This document shows positions 1-15,219 of a DNA stretch of 64,000 bases, one piece after another. The notes below the pieces were generated by a model, which saw only the letters and a program-made list of their open reading frames with translations, ran no database searches and was not told the DNA's origin. Position 1 is the stretch's first letter, and every line of letters begins with the position of its first letter. The stretch is from the NCBI GenBank assembly GCA_019636175.1, contig JAHBYC010000008.1, forward strand, positions 23,382 to 87,381, written 5' to 3'. Source of the stretch: Caulobacter sp. GTDB taxonomy: Bacteria; Pseudomonadota; Alphaproteobacteria; Caulobacterales; Caulobacteraceae. Position numbers and translations under genes: made by a program.

Positions 1-612
1 GCGGGAGTGGTGGGCTGGACCGACCTGGAAGCCCCGGGGGCCGTGGACGAGATCCGGCGGCTGGCCGGACGGCCGGACCTTCTGGGTCTGCGGCCAATGA
101 TCCAGGATATTCCCGAGGACGACTGGATGCTGCGCCCGTCGCTGGCCCCGGCGCTCGGCGCCATGATTGATGCCGGACTGGCCTTTGACGCCTTGGTGAC
201 TCCCCGCCACCTGGCCATTCTGCGGCGCTTTCTGGACAGCTATCCGGATCTCCGCGTCGTGGTGGATCATGGCGCAAAGCCCGACATCGCCGGCGGCGCC
301 TTCCGGCCATGGGCCGAGGCCATGGGCCGGATCGCGCGGGAAAGCGCCGCCGTGTGCAAGCTGTCAGGGCTCGTCACGGAGGCGGCGCCAGACTGGACCA
401 TGGAGCATCTCCGTCCCTACGTCGAACTGCTGCTCGAGACTTTCGGCCCGTCCCGCCTGATGTGGGGCAGCGACTGGCCGGTGCTTAACCTCAACGGTGA
501 CTACGCGGGCTGGCGCGCCGTGGCCGAGGACCTGGTTTCCGGCCTTCCCGAAGCAGATTGCGATCTGATCTTTGGGGGCGTGGCGCGGGCTTTCTATCAA
601 CTGGAGCGCTGA
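1..612 (+). CDS. Amidohydrolase-2 family protein, probable sugar-lactone hydrolase (5' end outside window)
   Basis: The frame is open from the first base, so only the C-terminal 203 residues are present; a GTG at 7 is not a convincing start. The sequence reads as a metal-dependent TIM-barrel amidohydrolase of the L-fucono-/L-rhamnono-lactonase type: a VVDHGAKPDI strand, a KLSGL strand and the family-typical WGSDWPVL near the C-terminus, whose Asp is the conserved metal/catalytic residue. It overlaps the next gene by one base (TGATG), so the two are translationally coupled. The neighbour is a sugar-acid-type enzyme, which favours hydrolysis of an aldonolactone to an aldonate. The exact sugar cannot be read from sequence. 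Confidence 0.8.
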   Translation, partial: AGVVGWTDLEAPGAVDEIRRLAGRPDLLGLRPMIQDIPEDDWMLRPSLAPALGAMIDAGLAFDALVTPRHLAILRRFLDSYPDLRVVVDHGAKPDIAGGAFRPWAEAMGRIARESAAVCKLSGLVTEAAPDWTMEHLRPYVELLLETFGPSRLMWGSDWPVLNLNGDYAGWRAVAEDLVSGLPEADCDLIFGGVARAFYQLER

Positions 613-1751
613 TGGCGAACATCGACGACATACTTCCCGACGATGGCTTCGCGGGCGTTCTGGTCGGCCGGATCTGGATCGACGGGGCCACGCCGGGCCC
701 ACGTCCGGTGGCGGTGCGGCGAGAGGGGCTTTTTGATCTGTCGGCCCTGGCGCCGACCCTCAGCGATCTCTTCGACCTTGCAAATCCCGCAGGCCAGGTG
801 GCTCGCCACGAAGGTCCATGCCTGGCTACGCTGCAGGAGGCGGCCGACCAGGGCCTGCTCCTTGCGCCCTGCGATCTTCAGGCGATCAAGGCCGCCGGCG
901 TCACTTTCGCGGACAGTCTGATCGAGAGAGTCATAGAGGAAAGGGCGCGGGGTGATGCGGCGGAGGCCGACGCCATCCGGCTTGACCTGGCCAAGGCTGT
1001 CGGATCGGAGCTGACCGGCGTGCGCCCCGGGTCCCCTGAGGCGGAAGCACTCAAGAGGGCGCTTATCGCTGCCGGGCTATGGTCGCAGTATCTGGAAGTC
1101 GGGATCGGTCCCGATGCAGAGGTTTTCACCAAGGCCCAGCCGATGTCGGCGGTAGGCTGGGGCGCGCGCATCGGTGTGCATCCAAAGTCGATGTGGAACA
1201 ATCCTGAGCCGGAGATCGTCCTGGCCTGCGCATCCGATGGGACGGTGGTCGGCGCCACCCTGGGAAATGATGTGAACCTCCGGGATTTCGAGGGCCGCAG
1301 TGCGCTGCTGCTGTCGAAGGCCAAGGACAACAATGCTTCCTGCGCCATTGGTCCTTTTGTCCGCCTTTTTGATGAAACCTTCAGCCTGGAGGACGTCCGG
1401 GCGGCCGAGCTCGGCCTGACCGTCAACGGCCGTGACGGCTTTTTGCTCTCTGGCGCGAGCTCGATGCACAGGATCAGCCGCGATCCGCTCGATCTCGTCG
1501 CCCAGACCCTGAATGCCGAACATCAGTATCCTGACGGATTCATGCTGTTCCTCGGCACATTATTTGCCCCGACCCAGGACCGCGGCGCGCCGGGCGCCGG
1601 TTTCACGCACGCTGTCGGCGACATGGTGTGCATCCGCTCGTCCCGGCTGGGTTCGCTGGTCAATGAAGTGACGACGTCCGACCTTGCGCCGCCCTGGCGC
1701 TTCGGGGCGCGGGCGCTGATGCGCAGTCTGGGGGCGCGAGGCCTCCTCTAG
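612..1751 (+). CDS. Fumarylacetoacetate hydrolase family protein (probable 2-keto-3-deoxy-aldonate dehydratase/hydrolase)
   Basis: This 379-residue protein belongs to the long FAH family that includes 2-keto-3-deoxy-pentonate dehydratases (XylX/AraD1 type). The C-terminal half holds the FAH-fold core: NPEPEIVL with metal-binding acidic residues, GNDVNLRDFEGRSALLL, and a terminal GDMVCIRSSRLGSLVNEV. I start it at ATG 612, which overlaps the lactonase stop, rather than at the upstream in-frame codon at 558 inside that gene. Lactonase followed by an FAH enzyme is the usual order in oxidative, non-phosphorylative sugar-acid pathways. Whether it dehydrates or hydrolyses its substrate is an inference. 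Confidence 0.82.
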   Translation: MANIDDILPDDGFAGVLVGRIWIDGATPGPRPVAVRREGLFDLSALAPTLSDLFDLANPAGQVARHEGPCLATLQEAADQGLLLAPCDLQAIKAAGVTFADSLIERVIEERARGDAAEADAIRLDLAKAVGSELTGVRPGSPEAEALKRALIAAGLWSQYLEVGIGPDAEVFTKAQPMSAVGWGARIGVHPKSMWNNPEPEIVLACASDGTVVGATLGNDVNLRDFEGRSALLLSKAKDNNASCAIGPFVRLFDETFSLEDVRAAELGLTVNGRDGFLLSGASSMHRISRDPLDLVAQTLNAEHQYPDGFMLFLGTLFAPTQDRGAPGAGFTHAVGDMVCIRSSRLGSLVNEVTTSDLAPPWRFGARALMRSLGARGLL

Positions 1752-1840
1752 GTGCGGGCTCTCAAGAGATGGTCCGTTCACCCCTGACCGGGGTGGCTGT
1801 GGTTGGGCGTCTGGACCCGATTGCCGGATCCCGCTCATCT

Positions 1841-2734
1841 CTAGCCGCCGGCGTCGGCGAAGGCCTCCTGTGCGATGCGCCAGAGCGCCTCCGCGTCGGT
1901 CCAGCGATCGGACTCTTCCCGGAGCGCTCCGTCTTCACCTCGAACCTGCCGGGCGTAGTTGATCGTGACCATCCGACCGCCAAACGTGGCATGGTGCGGC
2001 AATAGCTCGGCGGCGAAGGACAGGACTTCGCCGGGCCCGGCTTCGCTCAGGAAGCCCTGGAAGCAGCGGCGCCACATTTCCCTGAAGTGACCGATCGCCT
2101 CACGGTCCGGATCGACCGACATGCCGACCTGAATGCAACCGGAGTCGCCGATTCGGCCATGGACGGACCGGACGCGCTGGAACACCGGGGCCAGACGATC
2201 CAGCTTGCCGTTGAAATCCCCGAAGGTCATCTCGAGACCCGTGTACCAGTGCGACAGGTCGGCCGTGAAGCACAGGTCCGGGAACCGCGCCGCCAGATCG
2301 ATTGTGCGGCGCATATCCTGGGTCAGCGTGCCGCGATGGGTTTCAAGGTGTAGTGGATGGCCTCGACGTGCGCTGGCCTCAAGCATGTCCTCAACCAGGC
2401 GTTCGCCCTCGGGATGCGTCTCGAAACCATCCCCCAGGTGAACCGTGGTGAACTCGAGACCGAGGTCCGCGCCGCGCCGCGCGACGGCGTCAGCCTCGCC
2501 GAGCGACATGATCCGGGCCAGCCCCGTGGCGCGAAAGCCGGCCTTCAGGAACCGTTCGGGCGCCCAGGACTGGACCGCCTCCACGCCCGCCGCGCGCAAG
2601 GCGTCGATGATTTCGGCGAAATCGGGACCCGGGCCGGCGGACCAGGGGGGCAGGCCCAGGAAGATCGTCTCGTTGATGTCCTTGCGCAGGCGCGGAGCCT
2701 TGCAGGCGAGCCCCTGCGGGCGCCCGGTCGTCAA
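1841..2734 (-). CDS. Sugar phosphate isomerase/epimerase family TIM-barrel protein
   Basis: This 297-residue protein has the xylose-isomerase-like (AP_endonuc_2) pattern: a strand-1 segment LGLPPWSAG, metal-ligand-type Glu/His in HLETHRGTL, the ADLSHW strand, and SVHGRIGD near the C-terminal third. Such proteins isomerise, epimerise or eliminate on keto sugars; some act as lyases on 3-keto-glycosides. It starts at TTG 2734, overlapping the dioxygenase stop by 4 bp (TTGA), and no ATG or GTG lies nearby, so it is the second gene of a two-gene unit. Its stop faces the FAH gene 90 bp away. The substrate is unknown. Confidence 0.75.
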   Translation of the reverse strand: MTTGRPQGLACKAPRLRKDINETIFLGLPPWSAGPGPDFAEIIDALRAAGVEAVQSWAPERFLKAGFRATGLARIMSLGEADAVARRGADLGLEFTTVHLGDGFETHPEGERLVEDMLEASARRGHPLHLETHRGTLTQDMRRTIDLAARFPDLCFTADLSHWYTGLEMTFGDFNGKLDRLAPVFQRVRSVHGRIGDSGCIQVGMSVDPDREAIGHFREMWRRCFQGFLSEAGPGEVLSFAAELLPHHATFGGRMVTINYARQVRGEDGALREESDRWTDAEALWRIAQEAFADAGG

Positions 2735-3504
2735 AGGCTCTCGGCCGCCGGCGCACGCCCTTTCAGGTCCAGTCCCTGGTTGACGTGCACCTTCCAGGGA
2801 TAGTGGTCGCCTTCGCCTTCAACCCCGACCGCGTGAAGGTGGTTTGTCACCGCCTTGCGCCAGCCCCGAGAGGTATTCGCCGTTGTCATGTGCGGGGTCT
2901 TGGAATGGTGGAAGGTCACCGAACCACGGGCGATCGGGCAGACCACCATGCGGCTCTCGTCCACATCGCAGGTCAGAAGGTCGCTGGCCATGCCCTCGAC
3001 CCGCCGGTGTTGCAGAATGCCGTCGAGATGGCCGCGGTCGATGAAATGCATGCAGCCATTGTTGGCGTCGACGTCCTGCAGTGGAATCCAGCAGGTGATG
3101 CCCTTGTTATCGAGATTGCGGCCCCAATAGCCCTCGTCCTGATGCCATTCGGTTGGCACGCTCTTGCCCGGCGGCTTGGCCAGGAACTGGTCGTACCAGA
3201 AGGTCATGGGGGTCTGCATAAGCGCCGCGCCGAACTCGACGAGCCATTTGCGATAGGCCTGATCGGCGATGTCCTTCCAGACCAGCGACGGCCAGGACTG
3301 AACAATGCGGAAGGAGCGGTTTTCCCGATCCTCGCTCTCGTCCCAGGCCCAGTCAAAGGCCAGCCGCTCCTTGTCGGTGAGGAGGCTCTCGAGCTTGTTC
3401 TCGATGAGATCAAGGTCCGCCTTTGCAATGGCGTTTTCGACCACCAGCCATCCCCGCTCCGCGAAGGCGTCAATCTGTTCCTTTGTGGGTTTTGGGAAGG
3501 ACAT
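2731..3504 (-). CDS. Phytanoyl-CoA dioxygenase (PhyH) family Fe(II)/2-oxoglutarate oxygenase
   Basis: This 257-residue protein fits the PhyH family. The iron-binding facial triad is visible as HQDEGYWG (His and Asp) and the distal His in FHHSKTPHMT, with WIPLQDVDANNGCMHFI between them. Members hydroxylate lipids and small metabolites using 2-oxoglutarate and O2. An unusual neighbour in a sugar cluster, it may act on a modified sugar, aglycone or amine. It is first in the unit with the TIM-barrel gene. A promoter with the shared operator lies about 40 bp upstream, and a GAGG ribosome-binding site precedes ATG 3504. Confidence 0.8.
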   Translation of the reverse strand: MSFPKPTKEQIDAFAERGWLVVENAIAKADLDLIENKLESLLTDKERLAFDWAWDESEDRENRSFRIVQSWPSLVWKDIADQAYRKWLVEFGAALMQTPMTFWYDQFLAKPPGKSVPTEWHQDEGYWGRNLDNKGITCWIPLQDVDANNGCMHFIDRGHLDGILQHRRVEGMASDLLTCDVDESRMVVCPIARGSVTFHHSKTPHMTTANTSRGWRKAVTNHLHAVGVEGEGDHYPWKVHVNQGLDLKGRAPAAESL

Positions 3505-3541
3505 CGGGACCTCGGCGCTGGCTTATCTCGGCGATGAAAGA

Positions 3542-3570
3542 AAGTTAGTGGTCACAAGGTATTTGGTCAA
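3542..3570 (-). promoter_or_regulatory. Promoter with operator copy 1 for the PhyH/TIM unit
   Basis: Read on the minus strand, TTGACC (3570-3565) and TAACTT (3547-3542) are separated by exactly 17 bp, a good sigma-70-type pair. The inverted repeat TTAGTGGTCACAAG (plus strand 3545-3558) overlaps the -10. About 30 bp here are nearly identical to copy 2 at 6180-6208, including the -35. Confidence 0.7.
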
Positions 3571-3648
3571 GCCGGTCCGGGTCGTCGATCCGGGAGGGGC
3601 TCATGGAGCAAGAGGGTCGAAGCCGCTCGGGCCCAATGGCGACAAAGG

Positions 3649-3672
3649 GGCGCACGCCTCCGGCCGTGCGCC
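3649..3672 (-). terminator. Hairpin after the MFS gene
   Basis: Perfect 8-bp arms GGCGCACG and CGTGCGCC flank an 8-base loop, 36 bp beyond the stop of the MFS gene. There is only a weak U-run on the minus strand, so termination is plausible rather than certain. Confidence 0.4.
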
Positions 3673-3707
3673 AACGCGGCGGATGAAACGACGACCAAGG
3701 GTCTCGA

Positions 3708-5219
3708 TCACTCCTGCGACAGGGCGGCGCCGCGGCGCAGTTCCTCGAGGTTCGCTTCGTGCGTGGCCTGATCAATGCCAAACCGGGAGACGATGAACAT
3801 CGCGATGATGTTGCCGCCCACGATCAGGGGGACGGCGGTAAAGATCAGCCGGTTCATGATCGCCATATCGACCGTTCCGGGAATCGCCTTGGCGGGAAAC
3901 GCCACCCAGGTCAGAAGCAGCCCCGCGATGACGGCGCCCAGCGCCGCCCCCCATTTGTCCAGCAGGCCAAAGGCCGCGTAGAGCACCCCTTCAGATCGCA
4001 GCCCTGACTTGACCGCGATGTCGTCCGCGGCGTCGGCAAGAAGGGAATTGAACATGATGAGGAAGCCGATGGAGAAGGCCACCGCCAGGAAGCCCGACGC
4101 GACCAGCAAGGCCAGGAGTTCATTCGAGCCAACCGGGGGCGTCAGCCCCAGGGCGCGACCGACGAACGGAAGAACGAAGCTGATCGCCCAGCCGAGATAG
4201 CAGGCCATGAGAAACGGCTTCTTGCCGATCCGGGCGGAGATCCGGGGCGCGGCCCACAGCATGATGATCGCCGCAAACGGCGACACGAACAGCACATAGG
4301 CCACCTCCTGAGGCTTCAGAAGCCAGTAGTGCAGGAAGAAATAGGCCTGAAGCCCGAACTGAACACCACCGCCGAAACCGTTCAGAAGCGTCGTGCCCAT
4401 CAGGAACTGAAGGGGCCGGTGCGAGAGAATGAAGATCATCTCTTTCGCGGTCTGGCGAAGCGAGGTCTTCCGGGCGGCCGGTATGTGGAGGTGGCGAATT
4501 CGACCGTGCGTGGACAGCGAGGCTGTGATGATCACCACGAAAATGACCACGGCGGCGAAGAGGCCGAACTCTGCGTATCGTTCGCGGTTGAGAGCGCCCA
4601 AGGGGTTTGCGGCGTCCTCGCGCAGGAAGACCTGGAACAGAATGGCGTTCATCGCCGCGGCGCCGCCGTAGATAAAGAAATAGCGCCAGGCGATGAGGGC
4701 TGTTCGATCGTGGTAATCGGGCGCCAGTTCCGGAGCGAGCGCAAGCGACGGTATCTCGTAGAACGAGACGGCGACACGGACAAAGAGCAGCATCCCGACC
4801 ATGAAGACCAGAAGCCCGGCCGTCCCAAGGGTCTGAGGCGCATGCCACATCAACACGATGCCGATCGCCGAAGGCAGGGCCGAGGCGTACATCAGAAGGT
4901 GCCGGCGGCCCCAACGGCTGCGCAGATTGTCCGAGAACCGGCCGATCACCGGATCGATGACGCTGTCGACGATGATCGTCAGCGCGAGCGCCATGCCGAC
5001 CCAGGCCGCGTTCAGCCCGATGACCTGATTGAAGTAGAGTTGCAGCACCGAGCCTGAAAGCACGGTCGCCGAGACCCCGTAGGCGAGAGAGCCGAAACCG
5101 TAGCCAAGGCGGACGCCGAAACCGAGCGGCGGGGCCGCCCCGGGCTGTTCCTTGACGGGTTCGCCAAGAGATGCGGTCGGTTGCGGTTCGGATGGGGTGA
5201 CTTCGAGACCGGCGGTCAA
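3708..5219 (-). CDS. MFS transporter of the glycoside-pentoside-hexuronide (GPH) cation symporter type
   Basis: This 503-residue inner-membrane protein has about twelve hydrophobic segments. The N-terminal half carries the GPH/MelB-type signature VDSVIDPVIGRFSDNLRSRW after the second helix and GRRHLL in the following loop. Relatives import glycosides or sugars with H+ or Na+. It starts at TTG 5219 in a TTGA overlap with the PIG-L deacetylase gene, so the two are one unit. It is the only inner-membrane transporter in the locus, and pairs naturally with the TonB receptor at 12474-14726 to bring a substrate to the cytoplasm. Confidence 0.85.
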   Translation of the reverse strand: MTAGLEVTPSEPQPTASLGEPVKEQPGAAPPLGFGVRLGYGFGSLAYGVSATVLSGSVLQLYFNQVIGLNAAWVGMALALTIIVDSVIDPVIGRFSDNLRSRWGRRHLLMYASALPSAIGIVLMWHAPQTLGTAGLLVFMVGMLLFVRVAVSFYEIPSLALAPELAPDYHDRTALIAWRYFFIYGGAAAMNAILFQVFLREDAANPLGALNRERYAEFGLFAAVVIFVVIITASLSTHGRIRHLHIPAARKTSLRQTAKEMIFILSHRPLQFLMGTTLLNGFGGGVQFGLQAYFFLHYWLLKPQEVAYVLFVSPFAAIIMLWAAPRISARIGKKPFLMACYLGWAISFVLPFVGRALGLTPPVGSNELLALLVASGFLAVAFSIGFLIMFNSLLADAADDIAVKSGLRSEGVLYAAFGLLDKWGAALGAVIAGLLLTWVAFPAKAIPGTVDMAIMNRLIFTAVPLIVGGNIIAMFIVSRFGIDQATHEANLEELRRGAALSQE

Positions 5220-5989
5220 AGGGCGCTCCCGTGGGCTTTGGGCTTGAGCAGCGCCGAACCCAGCAGGCTCTGCAGAAGCGGCGTCACCGGATAGGGGGTG
5301 TGGCGGTACTGCCGGAAGCCCTCGGCGTGTTCGGCTCCGAAAACGTCGCCCTGCTGCCGCGCCCAGGCCTCAAGAGAGGCCTCGAAGTCATCGACGCCGT
5401 GCTGCTTGGCGACCCAGGCCTTCTGGCTGTGATGGCAGGCCAGCATCGCCTTCCTGATGTCCATGACCTCCGAAACCTCGGTCCCGAACTCCGGCTCCAC
5501 CCTGACGCCGACCCGGTCGCGTCCTCCCGCCGGGTCGCAGAAGTAGAGATGTGGAATGGCGTCCAGGGCCGGAGCATCGCCGGTGCGGTAATTGGGCACG
5601 GGCGCCGCGAAACAGGCGTCGCGGGCCAGCAGGCTGATCGTCTCGTGATCCGGGTGGTAGTCCACGGGGGACGCGGTGATGACAATATCGGCCCTGACCT
5701 CCCGGAGCAGTTCGGTGACCCTCCGCCGGGTCGGGTCGTCGTTGAACACGCCAAGGTCCGGCAGTCCGACGCATCGATAGTCGGCGCCGATGATCGCCGC
5801 GGCTGCGGCGGCCTCGGACTGGCGGATTCCGGCGGTTACGTCCGGTTCGTGTTCCGCGGAGCCGCAGTCACCGGCAGTCGCCGTGGCGATCGTCACCTGA
5901 TGTCCAAGCCGGGAGAGCAGCGCCAGACTGCCGGAAGCCAGCATCTCGATATCGTCGGGGTGCGCGTGCAGCGCCAGAATTCTCACCAT
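5216..5989 (-). CDS. PIG-L family N-acetyl-sugar deacetylase
   Basis: This 257-residue protein starts with the PIG-L/LmbE metal site HAHPDD (residues 8-13) and has the second site HPDH in VDYHPDHETIS. The family contains zinc-dependent deacetylases acting on GlcNAc-containing small molecules, including diacetylchitobiose and mycothiol/bacillithiol precursors. Length matches the family and no signal peptide is seen, so it is cytoplasmic. It is transcribed ahead of the MFS gene from the shared divergent promoter at 6180-6208, with a leader of roughly 180 bases. Context (NagB-like and NAGK-like genes) suggests removal of an N-acetyl group from an imported amino sugar. Confidence 0.85.
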   Translation of the reverse strand: MVRILALHAHPDDIEMLASGSLALLSRLGHQVTIATATAGDCGSAEHEPDVTAGIRQSEAAAAAAIIGADYRCVGLPDLGVFNDDPTRRRVTELLREVRADIVITASPVDYHPDHETISLLARDACFAAPVPNYRTGDAPALDAIPHLYFCDPAGGRDRVGVRVEPEFGTEVSEVMDIRKAMLACHHSQKAWVAKQHGVDDFEASLEAWARQQGDVFGAEHAEGFRQYRHTPYPVTPLLQSLLGSALLKPKAHGSAL

Positions 5990-6159
5990 GGTCTCAGGGC
6001 GCCTCGATCGGGGTCGCGGGGTCTGCGGCAGGCCGCCGGCTCAATCTGGAAGAGTTGAAAACGCCGAAGGCCATGGGCCCCGATCGGCGGATGCGGCAGC
6101 GGGTCAAGACAGGCCCCTCGGCGAAACTAGGGTCTTGGGCATGGTTCGAGGCTCGGCGC

Positions 6160-6208
6160 TTGACCAGGGGTGTTCAAGAAAGTTAGTGGTCACTAGGTAA
6201 TCGGTCAA
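6160..6208. promoter_or_regulatory. Divergent promoters sharing operator copy 2
   Basis: The operator TTAGTGGTCACTAG lies at 6183-6196. On the minus strand TTGACC (6208-6203), 17 bp and TAACTT (6185-6180) drive the deacetylase/MFS unit. On the plus strand TTGACC (6160-6165), 17 bp and TTAGTG (6183-6188) would drive the GH116 unit. One bound regulator would cover both -10 regions. Confidence 0.7.
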
Positions 6209-6219
6209 GGAGGTGTGAT

Positions 6220-8652
6220 GTGACCTCGGAAGGACGCTGTTTGAGCTATTCCGGCGCGACCGCCGAGCGCGTGGCGTTTCCGATGGGCGGTCTTGGCGCC
6301 GGCATGGTGTGCCTGTCCGGAACCGGTGCGCTCACAGCTGTTTCGGTGCGCAACGCGCCTGCCTTGCTCAATGAGCCGTTCATGTTCGGCGCGGTGCGTT
6401 GGTCCTCTTCCAGCGGCGACGGCGCCCGCGTGCTGGAAGGGCCGGTTCCAGCATGGAAGCTCACCTTTCCTTGGCCGGACTCTACCGGCACCGGTCGAGG
6501 TCAGCAGGGAAAGACATTTGGGCTGCCCCGCTTTCCCGGCAGCAGATTCGAACCCCGCTTCCCGTTCGCCCGCCTTGAGCTCGACCCTTGCGAGGGTCCG
6601 CTACGCTGTCGTCTCACGGGCTGGAGTCCGTTCGCGCCCGGGGATGCGGAGGCGTCGAGCCTTCCCGTCGCCGCCATCGAGTACGAATTCGAGAACCACG
6701 CCCGGGAACGGGTCGAGGTCATCTTTTCGTTTCATGCGCGCAACTTCATGCGGATCGCCGGCGCCGAAGGCGCGGCGGGCGTCGACGCGTCCGGAGGCAT
6801 GGTCCGCCTCTGGCAAGCGGGAAGTGGCGAGAGGCCCGAACAGGACGGCGCCTTCACCATTGCCTGCGACGCCGCCGAGACCATTGCCAGCGCCCGCTGG
6901 TTCCGCGGAGGCTGGTGGGATCCGGTCACCGATCTTTGGCGCGGCGTCGCAGAGGGGCGGACGCCACCGGCGGGGTCGCATGAGGCCGGCGAGCCCAGCG
7001 ACGGCGGCAGTCTCTACGTCCCCTTCAGCCTGGAGGCCGGCGAGACCCGGCGTGTTCGGCTACAGCTGTCCTGGTTCGTCCCCCGAACGTCGCTGCGTCG
7101 GGGCGCCGGTCCGTTCGATCCGAAGGGCCGTACGGACGGAACAGAGACCCATGTGCCCTGGTATGCCGCGAAGTTCACAGATGCGGAGGCGTTGGCCAGG
7201 TTCTGGGCCGATCAAATTGACAGGTTGCGGGAACGGTCCGAAACCTTCGCGGCCTGCCTCGCCGAACAGGCATTGCCCCCGGAAATCAAGGACGCCGTCT
7301 CCGCGAACCTGACCATTCTGAAGTCCCCGACGGTGGAGCGTCAGGCTGACGGTCGGCTGTTCATGTGGGAGGGTTGCGCGGACAACGAGGGAAGTTTCGA
7401 GGGCTCCTGCACCCACGTCTTCAATTACGCCCAGTCGATCGCCCACCTGTTCCCGGCTCTCGAGCGATCGCTCCGGGAGACAGAATTCTTTGATAACCAG
7501 GATGACACTGGTCACCAGAACTTCCGAGCCCAGCTTCCCATCCGACCCAATCCCCGGCGGGCGAGAGCCGCCGCCGACGGCCAGCTGGGTGGTATCGTCA
7601 AGGCCTACCGCGACTGGCGCATAGGCGGCGATGAGGCCTGGCTCCGCCGGCTGTGGCCACGCATCGTCGCCAGTCTGGACTATGCCATTCGGACCTGGGA
7701 CCCCGAAGAGGCCGGCTGGCTGACCGAGCCCCATCACAATACCTACGACATTGAGTTCTGGGGTCCCGACGGCATGGCCGGGACAATCTATCTCGCCGCG
7801 CTTCGGGCCGCCGCGGAGATGGCGCGGGCGCTCGGAGAGCCAGGCGACCGCTACGGCGCCCTCGCGGACAAGGCGGTGGCCCGCCTGGAGGGCGAGCTCT
7901 TCAACGGCGAATACTTCCACCAGAAGGTGCTCTGGGACGACCGCGCCCTTGAGGGCGAGATGTCGGCGGAGTCCAGGGAGAGCGTCCGGCGCGAGGGTCC
8001 CAAGTACCAATACGCCGGCGGCTGTCTTTCCGACGGCGTCGTGGGTGAATGGCTGGCACAGGCGTCTAGCCTCGAAACCGGCCTGGATTCCGGCAAGGTC
8101 GCCTCGCACCTGCGAGCCGTCCATCGCTACAACTTTCGGGCCTCACTGCGCGATCACGCCAATCCCCAGCGCCCCGCCTATGCGCTCGGCGATGAGGCCG
8201 CATTGCTTCTCTGCAGCTGGCCCCGGGGCGATGCGCCCCATTTCCCCTTTGTCTACAGCGACGAGGCCTGGACAGGCATCGAGTATCAGGTCGCCGCTCA
8301 CCTCATCCGCCATAAAGAGGTCGCCGCCGGACTGGAAATCGTGCGCGCCGCAAGGGCTCGATACGATGGTCGCGTCCGCAATCCCTTCAGCGAATTCGAA
8401 TGGGGCCATTGGTACGGACGGGCGATGTCGTCCTGGTCGCTGTTGCAGGCCATGACCGGCCAGGACTACGACGCGCGCACCCGCTGCCTCACGCTCGCAC
8501 CCGCCGTTCCGGGAGACGTTTCGGCCCTGCTGGCCACCGAGCGCGGCTATGGCCTGGTCGGCGTTCGCGATGGTGAGCCTTTCGTCGATGTCCGCGAGGG
8601 AACCATAGGCATCGACCGGCTGGAATTCCGTCCCTACCGGGACGCGCCGTGA
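6220..8652 (+). CDS. GH116-type glycoside hydrolase (GBA2/non-lysosomal glucosylceramidase-like)
   Basis: This 810-residue protein has the two-part GH116 layout. The N-terminal beta domain opens with FPMGGLGAGMVCLSGTGAL (from about residue 20), the family's GGxGxGxxxLxGxG signature. The alpha-barrel domain begins near residue 350, with WEGCADNEGSFEGSCTHVFN (383-402) and HNTYDIEFWGPDGMAG (506-521). By comparison with GBA2, E384 is my candidate nucleophile and D510 the candidate acid/base. The start is GTG 6220, 6 bases after a strong AAGGAGG; an out-of-frame ATG overlaps it. No signal peptide is seen, so cleavage is cytoplasmic. Known members hydrolyse beta-glucosides, beta-xylosides and beta-N-acetylglucosaminides. 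Confidence 0.85.
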   Translation: MTSEGRCLSYSGATAERVAFPMGGLGAGMVCLSGTGALTAVSVRNAPALLNEPFMFGAVRWSSSSGDGARVLEGPVPAWKLTFPWPDSTGTGRGQQGKTFGLPRFPGSRFEPRFPFARLELDPCEGPLRCRLTGWSPFAPGDAEASSLPVAAIEYEFENHARERVEVIFSFHARNFMRIAGAEGAAGVDASGGMVRLWQAGSGERPEQDGAFTIACDAAETIASARWFRGGWWDPVTDLWRGVAEGRTPPAGSHEAGEPSDGGSLYVPFSLEAGETRRVRLQLSWFVPRTSLRRGAGPFDPKGRTDGTETHVPWYAAKFTDAEALARFWADQIDRLRERSETFAACLAEQALPPEIKDAVSANLTILKSPTVERQADGRLFMWEGCADNEGSFEGSCTHVFNYAQSIAHLFPALERSLRETEFFDNQDDTGHQNFRAQLPIRPNPRRARAAADGQLGGIVKAYRDWRIGGDEAWLRRLWPRIVASLDYAIRTWDPEEAGWLTEPHHNTYDIEFWGPDGMAGTIYLAALRAAAEMARALGEPGDRYGALADKAVARLEGELFNGEYFHQKVLWDDRALEGEMSAESRESVRREGPKYQYAGGCLSDGVVGEWLAQASSLETGLDSGKVASHLRAVHRYNFRASLRDHANPQRPAYALGDEAALLLCSWPRGDAPHFPFVYSDEAWTGIEYQVAAHLIRHKEVAAGLEIVRAARARYDGRVRNPFSEFEWGHWYGRAMSSWSLLQAMTGQDYDARTRCLTLAPAVPGDVSALLATERGYGLVGVRDGEPFVDVREGTIGIDRLEFRPYRDAP

Positions 8653-9479
8653 TCCCGGTCGAGACCCTTGCGACGCCAGCGGCGATTGGCGAGCGGCTGG
8701 CCCGGGACATCCTGGCCGGCCTGGACCGCGCCGGGAAGGCGGGCGGTCGCTTTGTCCTGGGATGCCCGGCGGGCCGTACGCCCTTGCCTGTCTACCGGGC
8801 TTTGGCGGAAGCCGCGCGAACACGTGATCTGGCGCGGCTCCACCTGATCCTGATGGACGAGTTTGTGGAGGATGACGGGGGGACTTGGCGGCGCGTTCCC
8901 GCGAGCGCGCACCACAGCTGCGCCGGTTTCGCCGTCCGTCATCTCCTTGACCCCCTTCCGGGGATTCCGCGCGCCAACCTTCATGTTCCCGATCCGCGGG
9001 CGCCAGGGGACTACGAGGCGTTGATCGGAGACCTCGGCGGCATCGACCTCTTCCTTCTGGCGAGCGGGGCCACCGACGGTCACGTCGCGTTCAATCCTCC
9101 CGCCACATCGCTTCAAAGCAATACGCGCATCGTCGCCCTGGCCAAAGAGACCCGCGAGGACAACCTCTCCACCTTCCCGAGCTTCGCATCGCTGGGGGAC
9201 GTGCCGACCCACGGGGTGAGCATCGGGCTGGGGACCATCGTTCGTCATTCCCGCGCTGCCGTAATGATGCTGCACGGGTCGCACAAGGGATCGGCCCTGG
9301 CCCGCCTGCGTCAGGCGGAAGGCTTTTGCGAGGCCTGGCCAGCAAGCGTCATCTTCGCCTGTCGAAACCCCCGGATCATCGTGGATCAGGCCGCGGCGCT
9401 GGCCGCGGAGGTTGTCGCGGTCGTCGAGAGACCGGCCGGACGTTCCGGAATTCCACAAGCGCATTGTCAAGACACTTAG
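8649..9479 (+). CDS. NagB-like (glucosamine-6-phosphate deaminase/isomerase family) protein with altered active site
   Basis: This 276-residue protein spans the whole NagB/6-phosphogluconolactonase fold: phosphate loop GCPAGRTP, LILMDEFV (D70), GATDGHVAFN (D143, H145) and GSHKGSAL. These match E. coli NagB D72, D141, H143 and the lysine region. The ring-opening glutamate (E148 in E. coli, from the AFNEP motif) is proline here (P150), so normal deamination is doubtful. It begins at GTG 8649 in a GTGA overlap with GH116. Its stop codon TAG lies inside operator copy 3. It may act as an isomerase, a lactonase, or a deaminase for an odd amino sugar. Confidence 0.75.
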   Translation: MIPVETLATPAAIGERLARDILAGLDRAGKAGGRFVLGCPAGRTPLPVYRALAEAARTRDLARLHLILMDEFVEDDGGTWRRVPASAHHSCAGFAVRHLLDPLPGIPRANLHVPDPRAPGDYEALIGDLGGIDLFLLASGATDGHVAFNPPATSLQSNTRIVALAKETREDNLSTFPSFASLGDVPTHGVSIGLGTIVRHSRAAVMMLHGSHKGSALARLRQAEGFCEAWPASVIFACRNPRIIVDQAAALAAEVVAVVERPAGRSGIPQAHCQDT

Positions 9480-9492
9480 TGACCACTAAGTG
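9464..9492 (+). promoter_or_regulatory. Promoter with operator copy 3 for the Gfo/Idh-kinase unit
   Basis: TTGTCA (9464-9469) and TAAGTG (9487-9492) are spaced by 17 bp. The 16-bp inverted repeat CTTAGTGACCACTAAG (9475-9490, the best copy in the window) fills the end of the spacer and the start of the -10. This places an internal promoter between the NagB-like and Gfo/Idh genes. Confidence 0.7.
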
Positions 9493-9513
9493 ATCTATCA
9501 GCAGGAGACCTCC

Positions 9514-10686
9514 GTGCATCAGCGCAAAAAACACCGGATTGGCGTCATCGGCCTCGGAATGCGGCTCGGCATGCTGCTACGCGCCGCCAGGGCCGAGGGC
9601 TGGGATTTCGACCTTGCCGGCTATTCGGACCCCGATCCCGTCGGCCTCCCCCTCCTCGCCGAACAGGGGATCGACGCCGGCCGCCCCTATCCGGACATTC
9701 AGGCGCTGCTGGCCGACGGCGCCTACGATCTGGTGATGATAGGATCGCCCAATCACCTGCATCTTCAGCATCTCAAGGAGACCCTGGAGGGCCATTCCGG
9801 TCTCGTCTTCATCGAAAAGCCGATCGTCCGGACGGAAGAGGAATCCTTCGAGGCGGCCCGTCTGATACGGCAGCACGGAAAGGACCGGGTTCTGGTCGGC
9901 CTCGTGGCGCGCTCCGCCCCCATCGTGCGGACCGCGATGGAACGCCTCGACGCCAACGTAATCGGCGACATCATTTCCATCGACGCCACCGAACACCTGC
10001 CGCCGGCGCACGGCGCCTACCTGGCCAGGAACTGGCGGCGGCGCGCCGAATGGGGCGGGTCCTACATGCTCGACAAGGTCTGCCATGACTTCGACATCCT
10101 GGGCCGAATGGTGGGCGCCCGGCCGGTTCGCGTGGCCAGCTTCGGCGGCCGTCGAATCTTCAATGCGGAGGCGGTGGGGCAATCTCGCGATGAGGGGCCG
10201 GCGATCCTCCGTCGCCTGTCCGGCTGGAACGCGGCGCCCGACATCAGCGGTGCGGACATGGATGTGACGGACCACCAGGTCGCCATCGTCGAATATGCCA
10301 ACGGGGTGCGGCTGTCCTTCCATTCCAATACCAGCGCGGCCGCGCCGGAGCGTCGCTGGAACCTGGTCGGCCGGGCCGGCACGCTGACCATCGACCTTGT
10401 GCAGAACACCCTGGTGATCACCCCGCTGGAGGCTCGTGGAACGGTCGAACAGCTGCGCTGGCGCGGACCGCCCGGCGATTCCCACGGCGGCGCCGATCAG
10501 GCGATGGCGCGTGACCTGGTGGCCGCGCTGGACGGCGAGCGGGCGTTTCCGGTGTCAGTGACGGATTCACTTGTCGCGGGTCTCACCGTGATGGCGATTG
10601 ACCGGGCCCTTGACGAAGAGCGCATCGTCGATTGCGCCTCGCTCTGGACCCGGCTGGACGCCGCCGAAGCCGGGGAGGCCACGTGA
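9514..10686 (+). CDS. Gfo/Idh/MocA family NAD(P)-dependent oxidoreductase
   Basis: This 390-residue protein starts with a Rossmann strand, IGVIGLGMRLG, has the family EKP motif (FIEKPIV), and the catalytic-site segment DKVCHDFD, corresponding to the conserved Lys/His of the C-terminal domain. Members oxidise or reduce sugar hydroxyls, often at C3 of glycosides. The start is GTG 9514, 6 bases after AGGAG at 9503-9507; the longer frame from 9490 begins inside the operator and is not used. It overlaps the kinase gene by 4 bp. In this locus it could make a 3-keto sugar for elimination by the TIM-barrel protein. Confidence 0.85.
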   Translation: MHQRKKHRIGVIGLGMRLGMLLRAARAEGWDFDLAGYSDPDPVGLPLLAEQGIDAGRPYPDIQALLADGAYDLVMIGSPNHLHLQHLKETLEGHSGLVFIEKPIVRTEEESFEAARLIRQHGKDRVLVGLVARSAPIVRTAMERLDANVIGDIISIDATEHLPPAHGAYLARNWRRRAEWGGSYMLDKVCHDFDILGRMVGARPVRVASFGGRRIFNAEAVGQSRDEGPAILRRLSGWNAAPDISGADMDVTDHQVAIVEYANGVRLSFHSNTSAAAPERRWNLVGRAGTLTIDLVQNTLVITPLEARGTVEQLRWRGPPGDSHGGADQAMARDLVAALDGERAFPVSVTDSLVAGLTVMAIDRALDEERIVDCASLWTRLDAAEAGEAT

Positions 10687-11618
10687 GGTCGATGTCGTCA
10701 TGCGTGATCGGCATCGACGCCGGCGCCACCAAGACCGCCGCTGTCGCCGAGACTCTGGATGGCCGCCTTCTGGACCGGCTACGCACGGGTCCCAGCGCGA
10801 TCGTTGGCTTGCCGGATGCCCGCGCCTTGTCGGTGCTTCGCGACATCGTGGACCGGCTTGCGCCCCGGCGTGAAGCGCTCGCCCACATTACGATCGGCCT
10901 CAGCGGTGTCGATTTCGCCGAAGAGCAACCGGAACAGCACCGCCGGGTGGCCGAAGGGATTGGTGTGCCAGGAGACCGGCTCCTGCTGGTCAATGACAGC
11001 CTGGTGGCCCTGGCGGGGGCGGCGAAGAGCGATAGGACCACGCTTGTCCAGCACGGCACCGAGGTCACGATGGCCTGGCGGCCGCGCGTCGGCGATGAAA
11101 GCGTTTTTGACAGCGTCGGCATCGCCGACTGCTTTGACCTTCGGCTCAGGACGGTGCCGTTGGTCGCCCGCATGCTGGATGGAAGGGCGCGCGTCACGTC
11201 GTTGAAGGATCGTGTGCTCGCCCATTGCGGCGTCGACGCCAGGAGTTTTCCTCGGTGGGTGATCCGGGATCCTGGCGCGCGGGAGCGGATTCTGCAGTTG
11301 GCGCCGGTCGTGTTCGAGGCCTGGCAGTTCGGCGACGCCGCCGCCGCCCAGCTCGTGGAGTCCGCGGTCGAGGACTATGTCACCGCAACGGTGGCGATGG
11401 CGGACCGGCTTGGCCCGGGCGCCTTCGACGCCTGCTTTGGCGGAGGGACGATAGGCCAAGGCGGAAAGAAGCTGCTTTCCCTGATCGCTGAGCGACTGAG
11501 CCATCGCCGCCCTGACGCAAGCCTCGCCCTGCCTGCCCGGCCTCCCGAAGAGGGCGCGCTCATTCTGGCCCGCCGCGCCGCGGACGTGGCCGCGGTCGTT
11601 CAGGGGGCATTACGATGA
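10683..11618 (+). CDS. BadF/BadG/BcrA/BcrD-type ATPase, N-acetylglucosamine-kinase-like sugar kinase
   Basis: This protein of about 311 residues opens with the ASKHA phosphate-1 loop GIDAGATKTAA and has a phosphate-2/hinge segment in VNDSLVALAG. It matches the BadF ATPase family that contains mammalian-type GlcNAc kinase. I place the start at GTG 10683 in a GTGA overlap with the oxidoreductase; ATG 10692 is an equally possible start three codons on. It is the last gene of this unit, with a perfect 9-bp hairpin at its stop. It is the only kinase in the locus and probably traps the freed hexose or amino sugar as a phosphate. Confidence 0.78.
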   Translation: MRSMSSCVIGIDAGATKTAAVAETLDGRLLDRLRTGPSAIVGLPDARALSVLRDIVDRLAPRREALAHITIGLSGVDFAEEQPEQHRRVAEGIGVPGDRLLLVNDSLVALAGAAKSDRTTLVQHGTEVTMAWRPRVGDESVFDSVGIADCFDLRLRTVPLVARMLDGRARVTSLKDRVLAHCGVDARSFPRWVIRDPGARERILQLAPVVFEAWQFGDAAAAQLVESAVEDYVTATVAMADRLGPGAFDACFGGGTIGQGGKKLLSLIAERLSHRRPDASLALPARPPEEGALILARRAADVAAVVQGALR

Positions 11619-11634
11619 CCGCGAAGCGGTCATC
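11614..11634 (+). terminator. Hairpin at the end of the kinase gene
   Basis: GATGACCGC, a GAA loop and GCGGTCATC form perfect 9-bp arms overlapping the TGA stop at 11616. No U-run follows, so it may stabilise the transcript rather than terminate it. Confidence 0.35.
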
Positions 11635-11713
11635 GACGCAAGGGGCGTAAGCCGTATGAGGCATGGTGCGGGCGATGCGGTTTCATCATGTCGCGCTCCG
11701 ACCCGGCCGGCTC

Positions 11714-12343
11714 TCAGGCCAGAATTCGCGCCTGCATATGGCCGATGAAATAGCGCATTACCTCGGCCATCGAGATACGTCCGTCACTGAGCAGCCACTG
11801 CAGCCGCAGGCCGTCCAGCGTGGCGATCATCAAAGCCGCTTCCATGAGAGGATCGAAATCCTGACGGAAGACACCAGCTTGCCGGCCGGCCTCGAACGAA
11901 CGCACAAGCCGCTTGCGGAAGGTCTCGTAGCGCCCTTTGAAATATTCGTTGAATTCGGACCCGGCCTCCAGATGCTCGGCCGACATCAGCACGTCGAGGG
12001 CGGTAAGAACCGGATCGTCTTCCAGGACTTTTCCGAATTCCGCCCATGAGGCGATGTAGTTGGCGTCCGCGGTGTCCAGGTCGCCCGCCATGCGGGTTTC
12101 CTGTTCCCGGTCAGTTTCCTCGAGCACCGCCAGCAGAAGCGCGCTCTTGTTGGGAAAGTGATAGAGCAGGCCGGCGTCGGTGATGCCGATCTCTTCGGCA
12201 AGCATGGCCAGGCTGGTGCCCCTGAAGCCGCGCTGGGCAAACAGCTTTCGCGCACCCTTCAGGATTTCCGCGCGGCGCTTGCGGCCTCGCGGCTGGCGTG
12301 TTCCGGGTGCGGAAGGATGGCCTTCGCGTGAGCCTTCAATCAT
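11714..12343 (-). CDS. TetR family transcriptional regulator
   Basis: The 209-residue protein has a basic N-terminal tail, then a TetR helix-turn-helix at about residues 24-70 (RAEILKGARKLFAQRGFRGT, LAEEIGITDAGLLYHFPNK). The C-terminal ligand domain is not informative. It is the only regulator gene seen in the carbohydrate locus, between the kinase and the TonB receptor, so it is the leading candidate to bind the four operators. No operator copy was found in its own upstream region (12344-12473). A regulator outside the left edge of the window is the main alternative. Confidence 0.85.
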   Translation of the reverse strand: MIEGSREGHPSAPGTRQPRGRKRRAEILKGARKLFAQRGFRGTSLAMLAEEIGITDAGLLYHFPNKSALLLAVLEETDREQETRMAGDLDTADANYIASWAEFGKVLEDDPVLTALDVLMSAEHLEAGSEFNEYFKGRYETFRKRLVRSFEAGRQAGVFRQDFDPLMEAALMIATLDGLRLQWLLSDGRISMAEVMRYFIGHMQARILA

Positions 12344-12414
12344 CTACAAACCTTGCGCGAACTCTCGGACGGACGCCAGAGGCGACGCAAATTATACCTT
12401 TAGCGGCGGAGAAG

Positions 12415-12443
12415 GGCGATGAGGCCTGGCCGGCCTCATCGCC
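12415..12443 (-). terminator. Strong hairpin after the TonB-receptor gene
   Basis: Perfect 12-bp arms GGCGATGAGGCC and GGCCTCATCGCC with a 5-base loop lie 31 bp past the receptor's stop. There is no U-run, but position and stability suggest a 3'-end structure separating the receptor from the TetR gene. Confidence 0.45.
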
Positions 12444-12473
12444 AAGTTCGCCGGGGAGGTGGCCGGCGCCGCC

Positions 12474-14726
12474 CTAGAAGTCGATATCGAAGCTCACACC
12501 GATCGTGCGGACCGAGTTGTAGTTCCACGACTGCAGGATGGCCGTGGGGTCGGCGGTGATGTGGGACAGGAAGCTCGGTACGTACTCATCAGTGCAATTC
12601 TTGCAGAACAGTGAGGCCTTGTAGCGATCACCGAACCGATAGGTCAGGCTGGCGCCGAAAACGTCCACGCCGCCCAGGGCTGTGCCGGGGTCGCCGTTGG
12701 GCGAGAAATTGACGCTGGAGCGCCGGAACCAGTTGGCCTCAAGGCTCAGCAGATTGTCGCCGACCGGGATTTCATAGATGGCCTGGAGGGTGGAGGTGAA
12801 CTTCGGCGCCCCGGCCGGCGCCAGGCCCTTGGCCTGGAACTGACCGGCGACACAGCCCTGGGCCACCGTCTGCCCCGGATAGCAGGTGGTGATGAAATCG
12901 GTGAACTCGCTGTCGGTGAAGCTGGCGCCGAAATTGATCGTCAACTGCTCGGTCGGCCGGGCCGCGCCGTCGATTTCGATGCCCTTGGCGCGAACCCCGC
13001 CGGCGTTGGTCAGGCGGAAAAGCGCCGCCACCGGATCGTAGGTCTGGGTCTGGAAGTCGCTGAACTCCTCATAGAAGCCTGACACATTGAAGCGAAGCCG
13101 GCCGTCAAACAGCGTCGAGCGGAGCCCGGCCTCAAGGTCCTCGACGGTCTCGGGAGCGATGTAGGGGTCGAAGGCGGTGGAGCCGAGATTTTGCGGGTAG
13201 GCCGGTCCCTTGTAACCCGTCGCGTAGGTCAGATAGGCCATGACGTCGGGCGTGAACTGGTACTGAGCGCCAATCTTGTAGCTGAAGTTGGTGTTGGACT
13301 CGCTGAACTTGAAGTTTCCTTGCGGTCCATAGAGCCCGGGCCCATTCACATAGGTCCCGAAATCCTGGGCGATATCCACCTTGACCTTGTCGTAGGTCAG
13401 GCGACCTCCGGCCAGCAGCGTCAGGTCGTCGGTGACGTGGAAGTTCACCTGACCGAAGGCGGCCGTGCTGGCCGTAGTGTTACGGGTCGAGAAGTCGCCC
13501 CCGTAGAAGTTGGGGATGCCCGAGCCGAAGTTTGCGTAGAGTTGCGTATGGCCGTTGTTCACCGATCCGAAATAGTAGAGCCCGACCTGCCCATCGACCC
13601 GATCAAAGTCGAAGGCCAGACGCAGTTCCTCCGATAGCTGCCGGTTATTGGACCCGTTCGTATTGGTGTTGAACAGATCCAGGGTCGAGTAGTCGGTGTC
13701 CAGGTTCAGCTGAAGATCGTAGCGCCGCCAGGCGAGGATGTTCGAGATCGTCAGGTTCGGCGACAGCTTGTGAGAGACGTTCAGTGACACCCCATAGGTG
13801 TCCACGCTGCGGTAGTCGCCGGACGCCGAGTCGATCCCGTATTGCAGGTTCCGGGGGCCCGCCGTCGCGCCGATGCTGGCCAGGGAGCCCGAATAGACGC
13901 CGGCGCCGACGGTCCGCAGAGTCCTGTCCCAGATTCCACCGACGCCGCGTTCACGACTGTAGTCGGCCGTTGCATAGATGGAGGTGGCGTCCGTGGGCTC
14001 CCAAAGATATTTCACCCGGGCCGCGATGCGTTCCTGGGTCTGGTCGACCTGGGCGCCGGGCGGCGAGGTCACGGTCGCCTTCGCGATGGGGTCCTGGCTC
14101 GAGGCAAGCACGTTGACCCGCAGCGCGGAGGTCTCGGTCAACGGCATGTTCAGCGTGCCGCGCAGGACGATGCCGCGGTTCCCGCCGGCCGCCGTGTCCC
14201 TGTTGTCGTACTCGCCTCCGACCGTGCCGCTGGTTTCGCCCAGACGAGGCCGGTTGGTGACCACGTTCAGCAGCCCGGCCGACGCATTGCGGCCGAACAG
14301 AAGGCCCTGCGGACCGCGGAGGACCTCTACCCGGGCGACATCGTTGAAAACGCCGTTGCTCTGGAACAGCGGCACGCCGAGCGAGACATCGTCGACCATC
14401 ACACCAACGCTCGAGTCGACGGTTGGCAGGAAGATGTTGCTCCCGATGCCTCTCAGCGAAAAGGCGTTGTCCGTCGTGGTCTGAAAGCTTGGCGAAACCA
14501 GCTGGAGCTGGCTGAAGTCATTGAGCTTGCGGGCTTCCAGTTCCTCGCCGCCGATCGCCGTGACGGCGACCGGAACCTTCTGCAGGTTCTGTTCGACGCG
14601 CTGGGCGGTGACGATCACCTCTTCCACGGTCGGGCCGCCCTCGGTCGCCGGCGCGGCCCAGGATGCCGAGGCTCCCGCCACACCGACGAAGGCCACCCCG
14701 ATCAGCAATGCTTGCTTCGTAGTCAT
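12474..14726 (-). CDS. TonB-dependent outer-membrane receptor (sugar-locus type)
   Basis: The 750-residue protein has a Sec signal peptide (about residues 1-24, ending SWA) followed by a TonB-box-like VEEVIVTAQR. The plug (about 45-160) includes the LRGPQGLLFGRNASAGLLNV motif, and the beta-barrel ends in an aromatic residue (SFDIDF). It has the iron-receptor-like plug common in sphingomonads and caulobacters, which in these bacteria often imports plant-derived oligosaccharides. ATG 14726 follows an AGGGGAAG-type binding site. Two operator copies lie about 170-220 bp upstream, tying it to the same regulon as the GH116 and symporter genes. No TonB/ExbBD partner gene is nearby. Confidence 0.88.
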   Translation of the reverse strand: MTTKQALLIGVAFVGVAGASASWAAPATEGGPTVEEVIVTAQRVEQNLQKVPVAVTAIGGEELEARKLNDFSQLQLVSPSFQTTTDNAFSLRGIGSNIFLPTVDSSVGVMVDDVSLGVPLFQSNGVFNDVARVEVLRGPQGLLFGRNASAGLLNVVTNRPRLGETSGTVGGEYDNRDTAAGGNRGIVLRGTLNMPLTETSALRVNVLASSQDPIAKATVTSPPGAQVDQTQERIAARVKYLWEPTDATSIYATADYSRERGVGGIWDRTLRTVGAGVYSGSLASIGATAGPRNLQYGIDSASGDYRSVDTYGVSLNVSHKLSPNLTISNILAWRRYDLQLNLDTDYSTLDLFNTNTNGSNNRQLSEELRLAFDFDRVDGQVGLYYFGSVNNGHTQLYANFGSGIPNFYGGDFSTRNTTASTAAFGQVNFHVTDDLTLLAGGRLTYDKVKVDIAQDFGTYVNGPGLYGPQGNFKFSESNTNFSYKIGAQYQFTPDVMAYLTYATGYKGPAYPQNLGSTAFDPYIAPETVEDLEAGLRSTLFDGRLRFNVSGFYEEFSDFQTQTYDPVAALFRLTNAGGVRAKGIEIDGAARPTEQLTINFGASFTDSEFTDFITTCYPGQTVAQGCVAGQFQAKGLAPAGAPKFTSTLQAIYEIPVGDNLLSLEANWFRRSSVNFSPNGDPGTALGGVDVFGASLTYRFGDRYKASLFCKNCTDEYVPSFLSHITADPTAILQSWNYNSVRTIGVSFDIDF

Positions 14727-14897
14727 GTCTCTTCCCCTTTCTGCGGATCGGTCCGTTGTCTGGCACGATCCATTCTGGCCAGGGCTGCTCCCCCCTGGTT
14801 TCGGTCGTTTCTGACGGCGGGGCTCGGGCCTTCAGGAGCTTCTTGACGGCTCCGCATCTCCCAAAAATACGCTCCCACACTACGCCGCTTCGAATTT

Positions 14898-14948
14898 CTA
14901 GAGGTCACTAGGTAAATCGACTTGGAAAAAAAATCTAGTGACCACTAA
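14898..14948 (-). promoter_or_regulatory. Tandem operator copies 4a and 4b upstream of the TonB receptor
   Basis: Copy 4a is CTAGAGGTCACTAG (14898-14911) and copy 4b is CTAGTGACCACTAA (14935-14948), centres about 37 bp apart. The stretch around 4a also matches the 3' half of copy 2 (CACTAGGTAA). A minus-strand -10 such as TAGAAA next to 4a is possible, with a poor -35. The spacer includes a run of eight A. Confidence 0.62.
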
Positions 14949-15219
14949 AAATTAAACGCGCACCACCGTCGCGGCCTCTGGCGGGGAGCAAGAGCGGGAA
15001 GAAGCAGGGCCAGCGCCGGAACAGGTCACGGCGCGGCGCCCTGCGGACCACGGCCGTTCGCCGAAGGGCCGGGTCAAGAGCTTCCGGGCGGAGTCCCTGT
15101 CTGGGGCGCGATTCCGGACGCGTAAGGCCGTGCCCGACCCGTTGCAGAGGGCGGCAGCCGAAGTGAAACGGAAAGCGGGAAAGCAGGAGCTGAGGAATCA
15201 GCAGCTTGACGGATTTAGA
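14949..15219. other. Non-coding stretch between the sugar locus and tRNA-Ser
   Basis: No convincing gene is seen in these 271 bp; the short open frames are arginine-rich out-of-frame readings. No integrase fragment or direct repeat of the tRNA 3' end was found. Confidence 0.5.

Follow-up and report, generated by a model that had tools for sequence, protein, structure and literature searches.

A palindromic operator and its proposed TetR-family binder in a saccharide locus of Caulobacter

In the gus operon of Escherichia coli, GusR (UidR) is a TetR-type repressor with operators before its target gene and is released by a glycoside, according to the part of the published account used here (PMC9881133). 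NagC, NagQ and NagR control amino-sugar catabolic genes in Proteobacteria, with a kinase and TonB receptors included in some genomes, and the TetR regulons named in the same portion of that source (FabR, FadP, LiuQ, PsrA and RutR) are not carbohydrate regulons (PMC5343134). The locus described below lies in a window, the whole 64,000-nucleotide stretch of Caulobacter DNA analysed, and has a likeness to both, as far as those portions go: as with GusR, a TetR-type repressor is proposed over genes for saccharide uptake and cleavage, and as in the Nag regulons of some genomes, amino-sugar catabolic genes are joined by kinase and TonB receptor genes. NagC, NagQ and NagR belong to families other than TetR, and the TetR type of the window regulator sets it apart from them. 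Among the literature matches listed, no title or abstract opening described this regulator; those listed for one motif search contained the term ACCTAGTGA alone, in work unrelated by its titles, and the part of PMC13046382 used here had nothing of relevance.

Genes of the locus and the palindromes between them

On the minus strand, the gene of a PhyH-type dioxygenase (2731..3504) lies next to that of a 297-aa protein (1841..2734), for which no Pfam, NCBIfam or PDB sequence match was found and which is conserved in all four clade-1 loci. The same strand carries the genes of an MFS_2 (GPH-type) sugar transporter (3708..5219), a PIG-L deacetylase (5216..5989), a TetR-family regulator (11714..12343) and a TonB-dependent receptor (12474..14726). 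On the plus strand lie those of a GH116 glycoside hydrolase (6220..8652), a glucosamine-6-phosphate deaminase-like (NagB-like) protein (8649..9479), a Gfo/Idh/MocA protein (9514..10686, its start placed by inspection at 9514, after an operator) and a BadF-type (N-acetylglucosamine-kinase-like) kinase (10692..11618, start also by inspection). An amidohydrolase gene and an FAA-hydrolase-type gene (7-1751, plus strand) adjoin the regulon without an operator, and amidohydrolase relatives (65%) are found beside the regulon in a related genome, G626, also.

The relatives of the PIG-L, NagB-like and kinase proteins point to an amino sugar as substrate. The best PDB relative of the GH116 protein is 8ic6 (E=6.3e-105), with glucosylceramidases and beta-glucosidases at 6.3e-8 or weaker; in the portion of its source used here, 8ic6 is the exo-beta-D-arabinofuranosidase ExoMA2 (PMC10509167), and if activity goes with sequence similarity, this would speak for a D-arabinofuranoside as substrate. 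The substrate may be an amino sugar, a D-arabinofuranoside or another glycoside. The Gfo/Idh/MocA protein is closest to 8qc3 (3.5e-16) and 8qc2 (1.4e-15), which figure in the relevant part of their source as NAD-dependent sulfoquinovosidases (PMC10755693). Because of these relatives, the step termed oxidation in the preliminary description may be redox-assisted cleavage, and its pathway words are secured in part, since the enzyme concerned may instead be an NAD-dependent glycosidase.

A window search found five palindromes where that description had placed them, the third (9476..9489) falling within its interval 9475-9490, and the observation of the palindromes is real. None is assigned a strand. 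Operator 1, TTAGTGGTCACAAG (3545..3558), stands before the PhyH gene with its centre 47.5 bp from the PhyH start; operator 2, TTAGTGGTCACTAG (6183..6196), lies between the divergent PIG-L and GH116 genes; and operator 3, TTAGTGACCACTAA (9476..9489), precedes the Gfo and BadF genes and overlaps the 3' end of the NagB-like gene. Before the TonB gene are the weaker operator 4, CTAGAGGTCACTAG (14898..14911), whose letters are identical in the relative SLTY, and, 37 bp from it, operator 5, CTAGTGACCACTAA (14935..14948), with centres 178.5 and 215.5 bp from the TonB start. Relative to TTAGTGNNCACTAA, the site at 9476 has no mismatch, those at 6183 and 14935 have one each, that at 3545 has two and that at 14898 three. 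The window count with three mismatches allowed is a weak test alone, because 15 of 100 window shuffles reach at least five matches; chance was thus not settled by it, and genome-wide and cross-genome tests were needed. A search of the 3,172,269-base assembly for TAGTGNNCACTA, one mismatch being allowed, gave exactly five places, none of them outside the locus (reversed control, 25 per strand), which upholds the claim that no copy lies elsewhere; a further copy may be located in absent sequence, since the assembly is 86.9% complete. The looser YTAGYGNNCRCTAR, also with at most one mismatch, gave the same five and one place elsewhere in the assembly (control, 130). A weight matrix trained on ten sites, those of the window and SLTY, gave the five sites scores of 29.9-34.9, and nothing else in the window scored above 2.6.

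Three of the operators overlap promoter-like hexamer pairs spaced by 17 bp: TTGACC-N17-TAACTT toward PhyH (3542..3570, minus), the same pair toward PIG-L/MFS_2 (6180..6208, minus), TTGACC-N17-TTAGTG toward GH116 (6160..6188, plus) and TTGTCA-N17-TAAGTG toward Gfo/BadF (9464..9492, plus). The operator at 3545 thus overlaps a pair on the minus strand, that at 6183 a pair on each strand and that at 9476 a pair on the plus strand, in each case at the spacer and the -10 hexamer. The pairs recur in SLTY and in the genome G654, that of the Gfo promoter in G626 too. The spacing pattern yielded 12 matches in 13 scanned stretches, every one at an operator and every one in clade 1; having been derived from known sites, it describes geometry and is no independent test. 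A strict sigma-70 scan of 1700-15100 found no promoter (shuffles averaged 1.6), and the -10 hexamers are poor matches to TATAAT; because that scan gave none, the promoter claims draw on spacing and on recurrence in relatives. No hexamer pair was found at the TonB operators at 14898 and 14935. The reported coincidence of three copies with -35/-10 pairs therefore holds as spacing at 3545, 6183 and 9476 and fails in the strict scan, and the broader statement that copies always lie at or beside promoters holds with pairs at those three and lacks one at the tandem sites. The four transcription units proposed earlier are corrected here to five transcription starts that the sites would serve, because the site at 6183 sits between divergent genes.

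Co-occurrence of the regulator and the operator

The protein encoded at 11714 matches the helix-turn-helix family PF00440 (E=1.4e-15, 57.2 bits, cut-off 24) and was the only regulator domain among the ten locus genes in a family scan; this assignment and co-occurrence make it our proposed operator binder. Its best NCBIfam match, NF041196 (ScbR-type autoregulator-binding factors), reached 62.8 bits and lies below the cut-off of 150. As is typical of the TetR family, palindromic operators lie at promoters of its own cluster, in the sequence and by comparison. TetR matches at E<=0.001 were found in all 61 genomes searched, and a profile search at E<=1e-20 returned 13 matches in 12 of 299 family genomes, the thirteenth being a second TetR of the genome G002. 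All 12 carrier genomes have operator-like sites near the TetR gene, with a best score of at least 19.4 bits in each: 34.9 in the window, 36.4 in SLTY (G460), 32.7 in G626, 34.3 in G654, 26.0 in G448, 25.7 in G566, 24.9 in G636, 28.3 in G611, 19.4 in G586, 27.5 in G688, 23.7 in G558 and 28.6 in G002. Ten of these lay outside matrix training, the window and SLTY being the training genomes, and G460 and the SLTY genome G482 have the same site coordinates. Over 44 further loci that were fetched, partly overlapping and 226 kb in all, the matrix reached 7.6 at most. The recognition-helix motif TDAGLL[YH]HF is common to the 12 TetRs (TDAGLLYHF, in G002 TDAGLLHHF). In a wider set of 34 TetR loci the helix was read in 8, so the helix comparison covers a minority of the unrelated TetR loci. 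The second TetR of G002, which scored 112 bits in the profile search and has the helix TNGGLLHYF, lacks an operator in 20 kb, where the best score was 5.1 bits. A search for the BadF-type kinase found it in 10 of the 299 family genomes, all among the 12 TetR carriers.

The most distant of the 12 regulators is that of G002, which belongs to the same genus and at 36% identity is the best relative in the 61 genomes. The sequence immediately ahead of its start codon is AACCTTACCTAGCGATCACTAGGTAAGGTT, a near-perfect copy of the operator; a GH1 gene lies downstream. The matrix gave 28.6 bits at this site versus at most 5.5 in 31 other TetR-homologue loci (L008-L035, L037, L038 and L041). The 20-mer TACCTAGTGATCACTAGGTA with up to three mismatches was found in one of 75 genus genomes, directly before the G002 TetR gene (control, one genome), and in none of 385 class genomes (control, nine genomes); the sites in the window diverge too far from this 20-mer to be matched by it. 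The extended pattern YTAGTGNYCACTARGTRA with at most one mismatch was found in three of the 75 genus genomes (the source, G460 and G002), all TetR carriers (reversed control, 13). Both genus patterns missed the fourth genus carrier, G448, and because of this and of the window sites being unlike the 20-mer, the operator differs between clades. For the TetR ranking next in the class (G245, 31%), no operator was found in a 3.5-kb locus (L041) or a 20-kb locus (L044, one of the 44 loci above). GH116 was tried as a guide to relatives and rejected: at E<=1e-60 it led to one other of the 385 class genomes, G116, where the operator was absent (best score 7.6) and no TetR was found among 10 ORFs scanned of the 30 listed in its 20-kb locus.

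The preliminary description had named the TetR protein at 11714 as the candidate regulator, and the co-occurrence in 12 of 12 genomes, the helix motif and the operator before the G002 regulator's own gene support that choice. Very probably the palindromes are landing sites of the TetR protein from the same locus, and a locus-specific regulon under this protein is favoured and supported by the comparison. That the upstream region of tetR has no copy was also noted earlier and was confirmed in the window. In all four clade-1 loci, the four closest, tetR follows the TonB receptor gene on the same strand, which may explain the missing copy: transcription from the operator-bearing TonB promoter may extend into tetR, or tetR perhaps has a separate promoter. 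In the TonB-tetR gap, inspection by eye found a hairpin of 12 perfectly paired bp (12415-12443) that lacks a T-run and, after it, TATAAT (12391-12396, minus strand), perhaps such a promoter; the strict sigma-70 scan lists neither.

Related loci in two clades

Of the three loci returned by a contig search for relatives, that of Caulobacter sp. SLTY is the one close relative, its TetR being 94% identical to that of the window. This locus is collinear from the 1841 gene to the TonB gene at 80.7-84.1% DNA identity, and the intergenic comparison suggested earlier finds all five sites in place there. The SLTY sites at 3545 and 6183 are closer to the consensus than those of the window, and those at 9476 and 14935 have a self-complementary centre. 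Across the whole SLTY genome, all four perfect YTAGYGNNCRCTAR matches fall in the locus, as does one of the seven matches with one mismatch. The spacing of the TonB operator pair is 37 bp in SLTY, as in the window, and 36 bp in G626, and G654 has a single operator there. The gene order of G654 is changed, with operators before the TonB, MFS_2 and Gfo genes and between those of GH116 and PhyH. Another TonB-like gene and another PhyH relative (67%) lie beside its regulon (L075 7425-13247).

The clade-2 TetRs (G448, G566, G636, G611, G586, G688 and G558) are 53-59% identical to that of the window. In six of the seven loci, a BadF-type kinase related to the window's is accompanied by GH4 and YdjC genes, with an operator at or near the BadF 5' end. 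Since the operator lies inside the longest BadF ORF in G566 and G611 and overlaps the aligned BadF start in G688, downstream start codons must be assumed in these three. In G636, G611, G586, G688 and G558, tetR comes after YdjC and is read in the same direction, which may put it under the operator as well. G448 and G566 carry TonB, MFS_2 and sulfatase genes, with an operator at the TonB-tetR divergence (24.5 and 18.5 bits). Tandem operator-like sites 21-22 bp apart were observed at clade-2 kinase promoters (L076 1160-1203, L078 7935-7977 and L080 13436-13478), the weaker partner scoring 9.0-15.0 bits; the clade-1 TonB spacing is 36-37 bp instead. In G636 (L078 7980-8511), BadF and GH4 match over short stretches of 72 and 87 aa only, and tandem operators, YdjC and TetR remain; judged from these remnants, it is apparently a decayed pathway with its control retained.

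An uncharacterised TetR protein thereby gains, by comparison alone, a defined operator and a target list that groups the genes of one saccharide pathway. Across the two clades, one regulator and operator stay with the kinase while most other enzymes differ, and it is this retention of the control over another set of enzymes that is most interesting. A tentative and rather doubtful reading is that the TetR protein and its operator form the constant control module of an undescribed Caulobacteraceae saccharide pathway, in which the BadF-type kinase and a deacetylase step recur, the other enzymes are exchanged and the TetR protein senses a shared amino-sugar-like intermediate. The exchanged sets, no more firmly held, would be GH116, PIG-L and Gfo/Idh/MocA (perhaps an NAD-dependent glycosidase) in clade 1 and GH4 and YdjC in clade 2. 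If this were true, the regulon would point to a new route of catabolism.

The proposed circuit and its described counterparts

We consider it likely, with good confidence, that the TetR protein is a local repressor which binds the palindromes and switches the units of the locus jointly. It would bind TTAGTGRYCACTAA (in fuller form near ACYTAGTGATCACTARGT), probably as a dimer, at five copies in or beside promoters for uptake by the TonB receptor and MFS_2 transporter, deacetylation by PIG-L, glycoside cleavage by GH116 and perhaps also by Gfo/Idh/MocA, phosphorylation by the BadF-type kinase, and further conversion. While bound, TetR would stand in the way of RNA polymerase; its release by a saccharide or an intermediate of the pathway would turn all units on together, tetR itself probably included via the TonB promoter. 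The sites, their confinement to the locus in this assembly, their conservation, their position on the hexamer pairs and the joint occurrence of TetR and operator are what was observed, and direct binding, repression as opposed to activation, the inducer and the TonB-to-tetR read-through are what we infer; operators over hexamer pairs spaced 17 bp are as expected for a repressor.

The palindromes might instead be bound by a regulator encoded elsewhere, with tetR a mere passenger of the cluster, as the lack of a copy directly before the window tetR could be taken to indicate; this is improbable, given that TetR and operator occur together in 12 of 12 genomes across 36-100% protein identity and changed gene orders, and that 72 of the 75 genus genomes, most TetR-less ones included, are without the extended pattern. 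It is unlikely, if a little less so, that binding of the TetR protein activates the units or has a dual effect. The tandem TonB operators, at their distance from the start and without a hexamer pair, would suit such a role, as would the poor -10 hexamers elsewhere, but the operators at 3545, 6183 and 9476 overlap the -10 hexamer and the spacer, where repressors usually bind. That the palindromes are chance repeats, or play no part in regulation, might be suspected from the shuffled windows that reach five matches, and yet this is hardly credible in view of the exclusive genome-wide clustering in the locus and the conservation of the sites in relatives, where they are present at other gene orders.

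The repressor circuit can be set beside described systems. The window TetR matches 6ayi (UidR) at E=4.3e-6 and 30.0 bits, behind many unrelated TetR chains; GusR appears to be a distant relative, and many of the 58 TetR structure matches are equal or better. The locus also differs from gus in having different enzymes, several promoters and a TonB receptor, and no glucuronidase was found among its families. ChbF and ChbG are chb-type chitobiose genes, and clade 2 resembles this type in placing GH4 and YdjC genes beside a BadF-type kinase under the same operator. The clade-2 loci depart from it in their TonB and MFS_2 uptake genes and TetR regulator, and the window locus in carrying PIG-L and GH116 instead. 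Comparison of genomes makes a convincing case for a local regulon in which TetR acts through a defined operator, which would be new as an instance and familiar as a conventional type of circuit.
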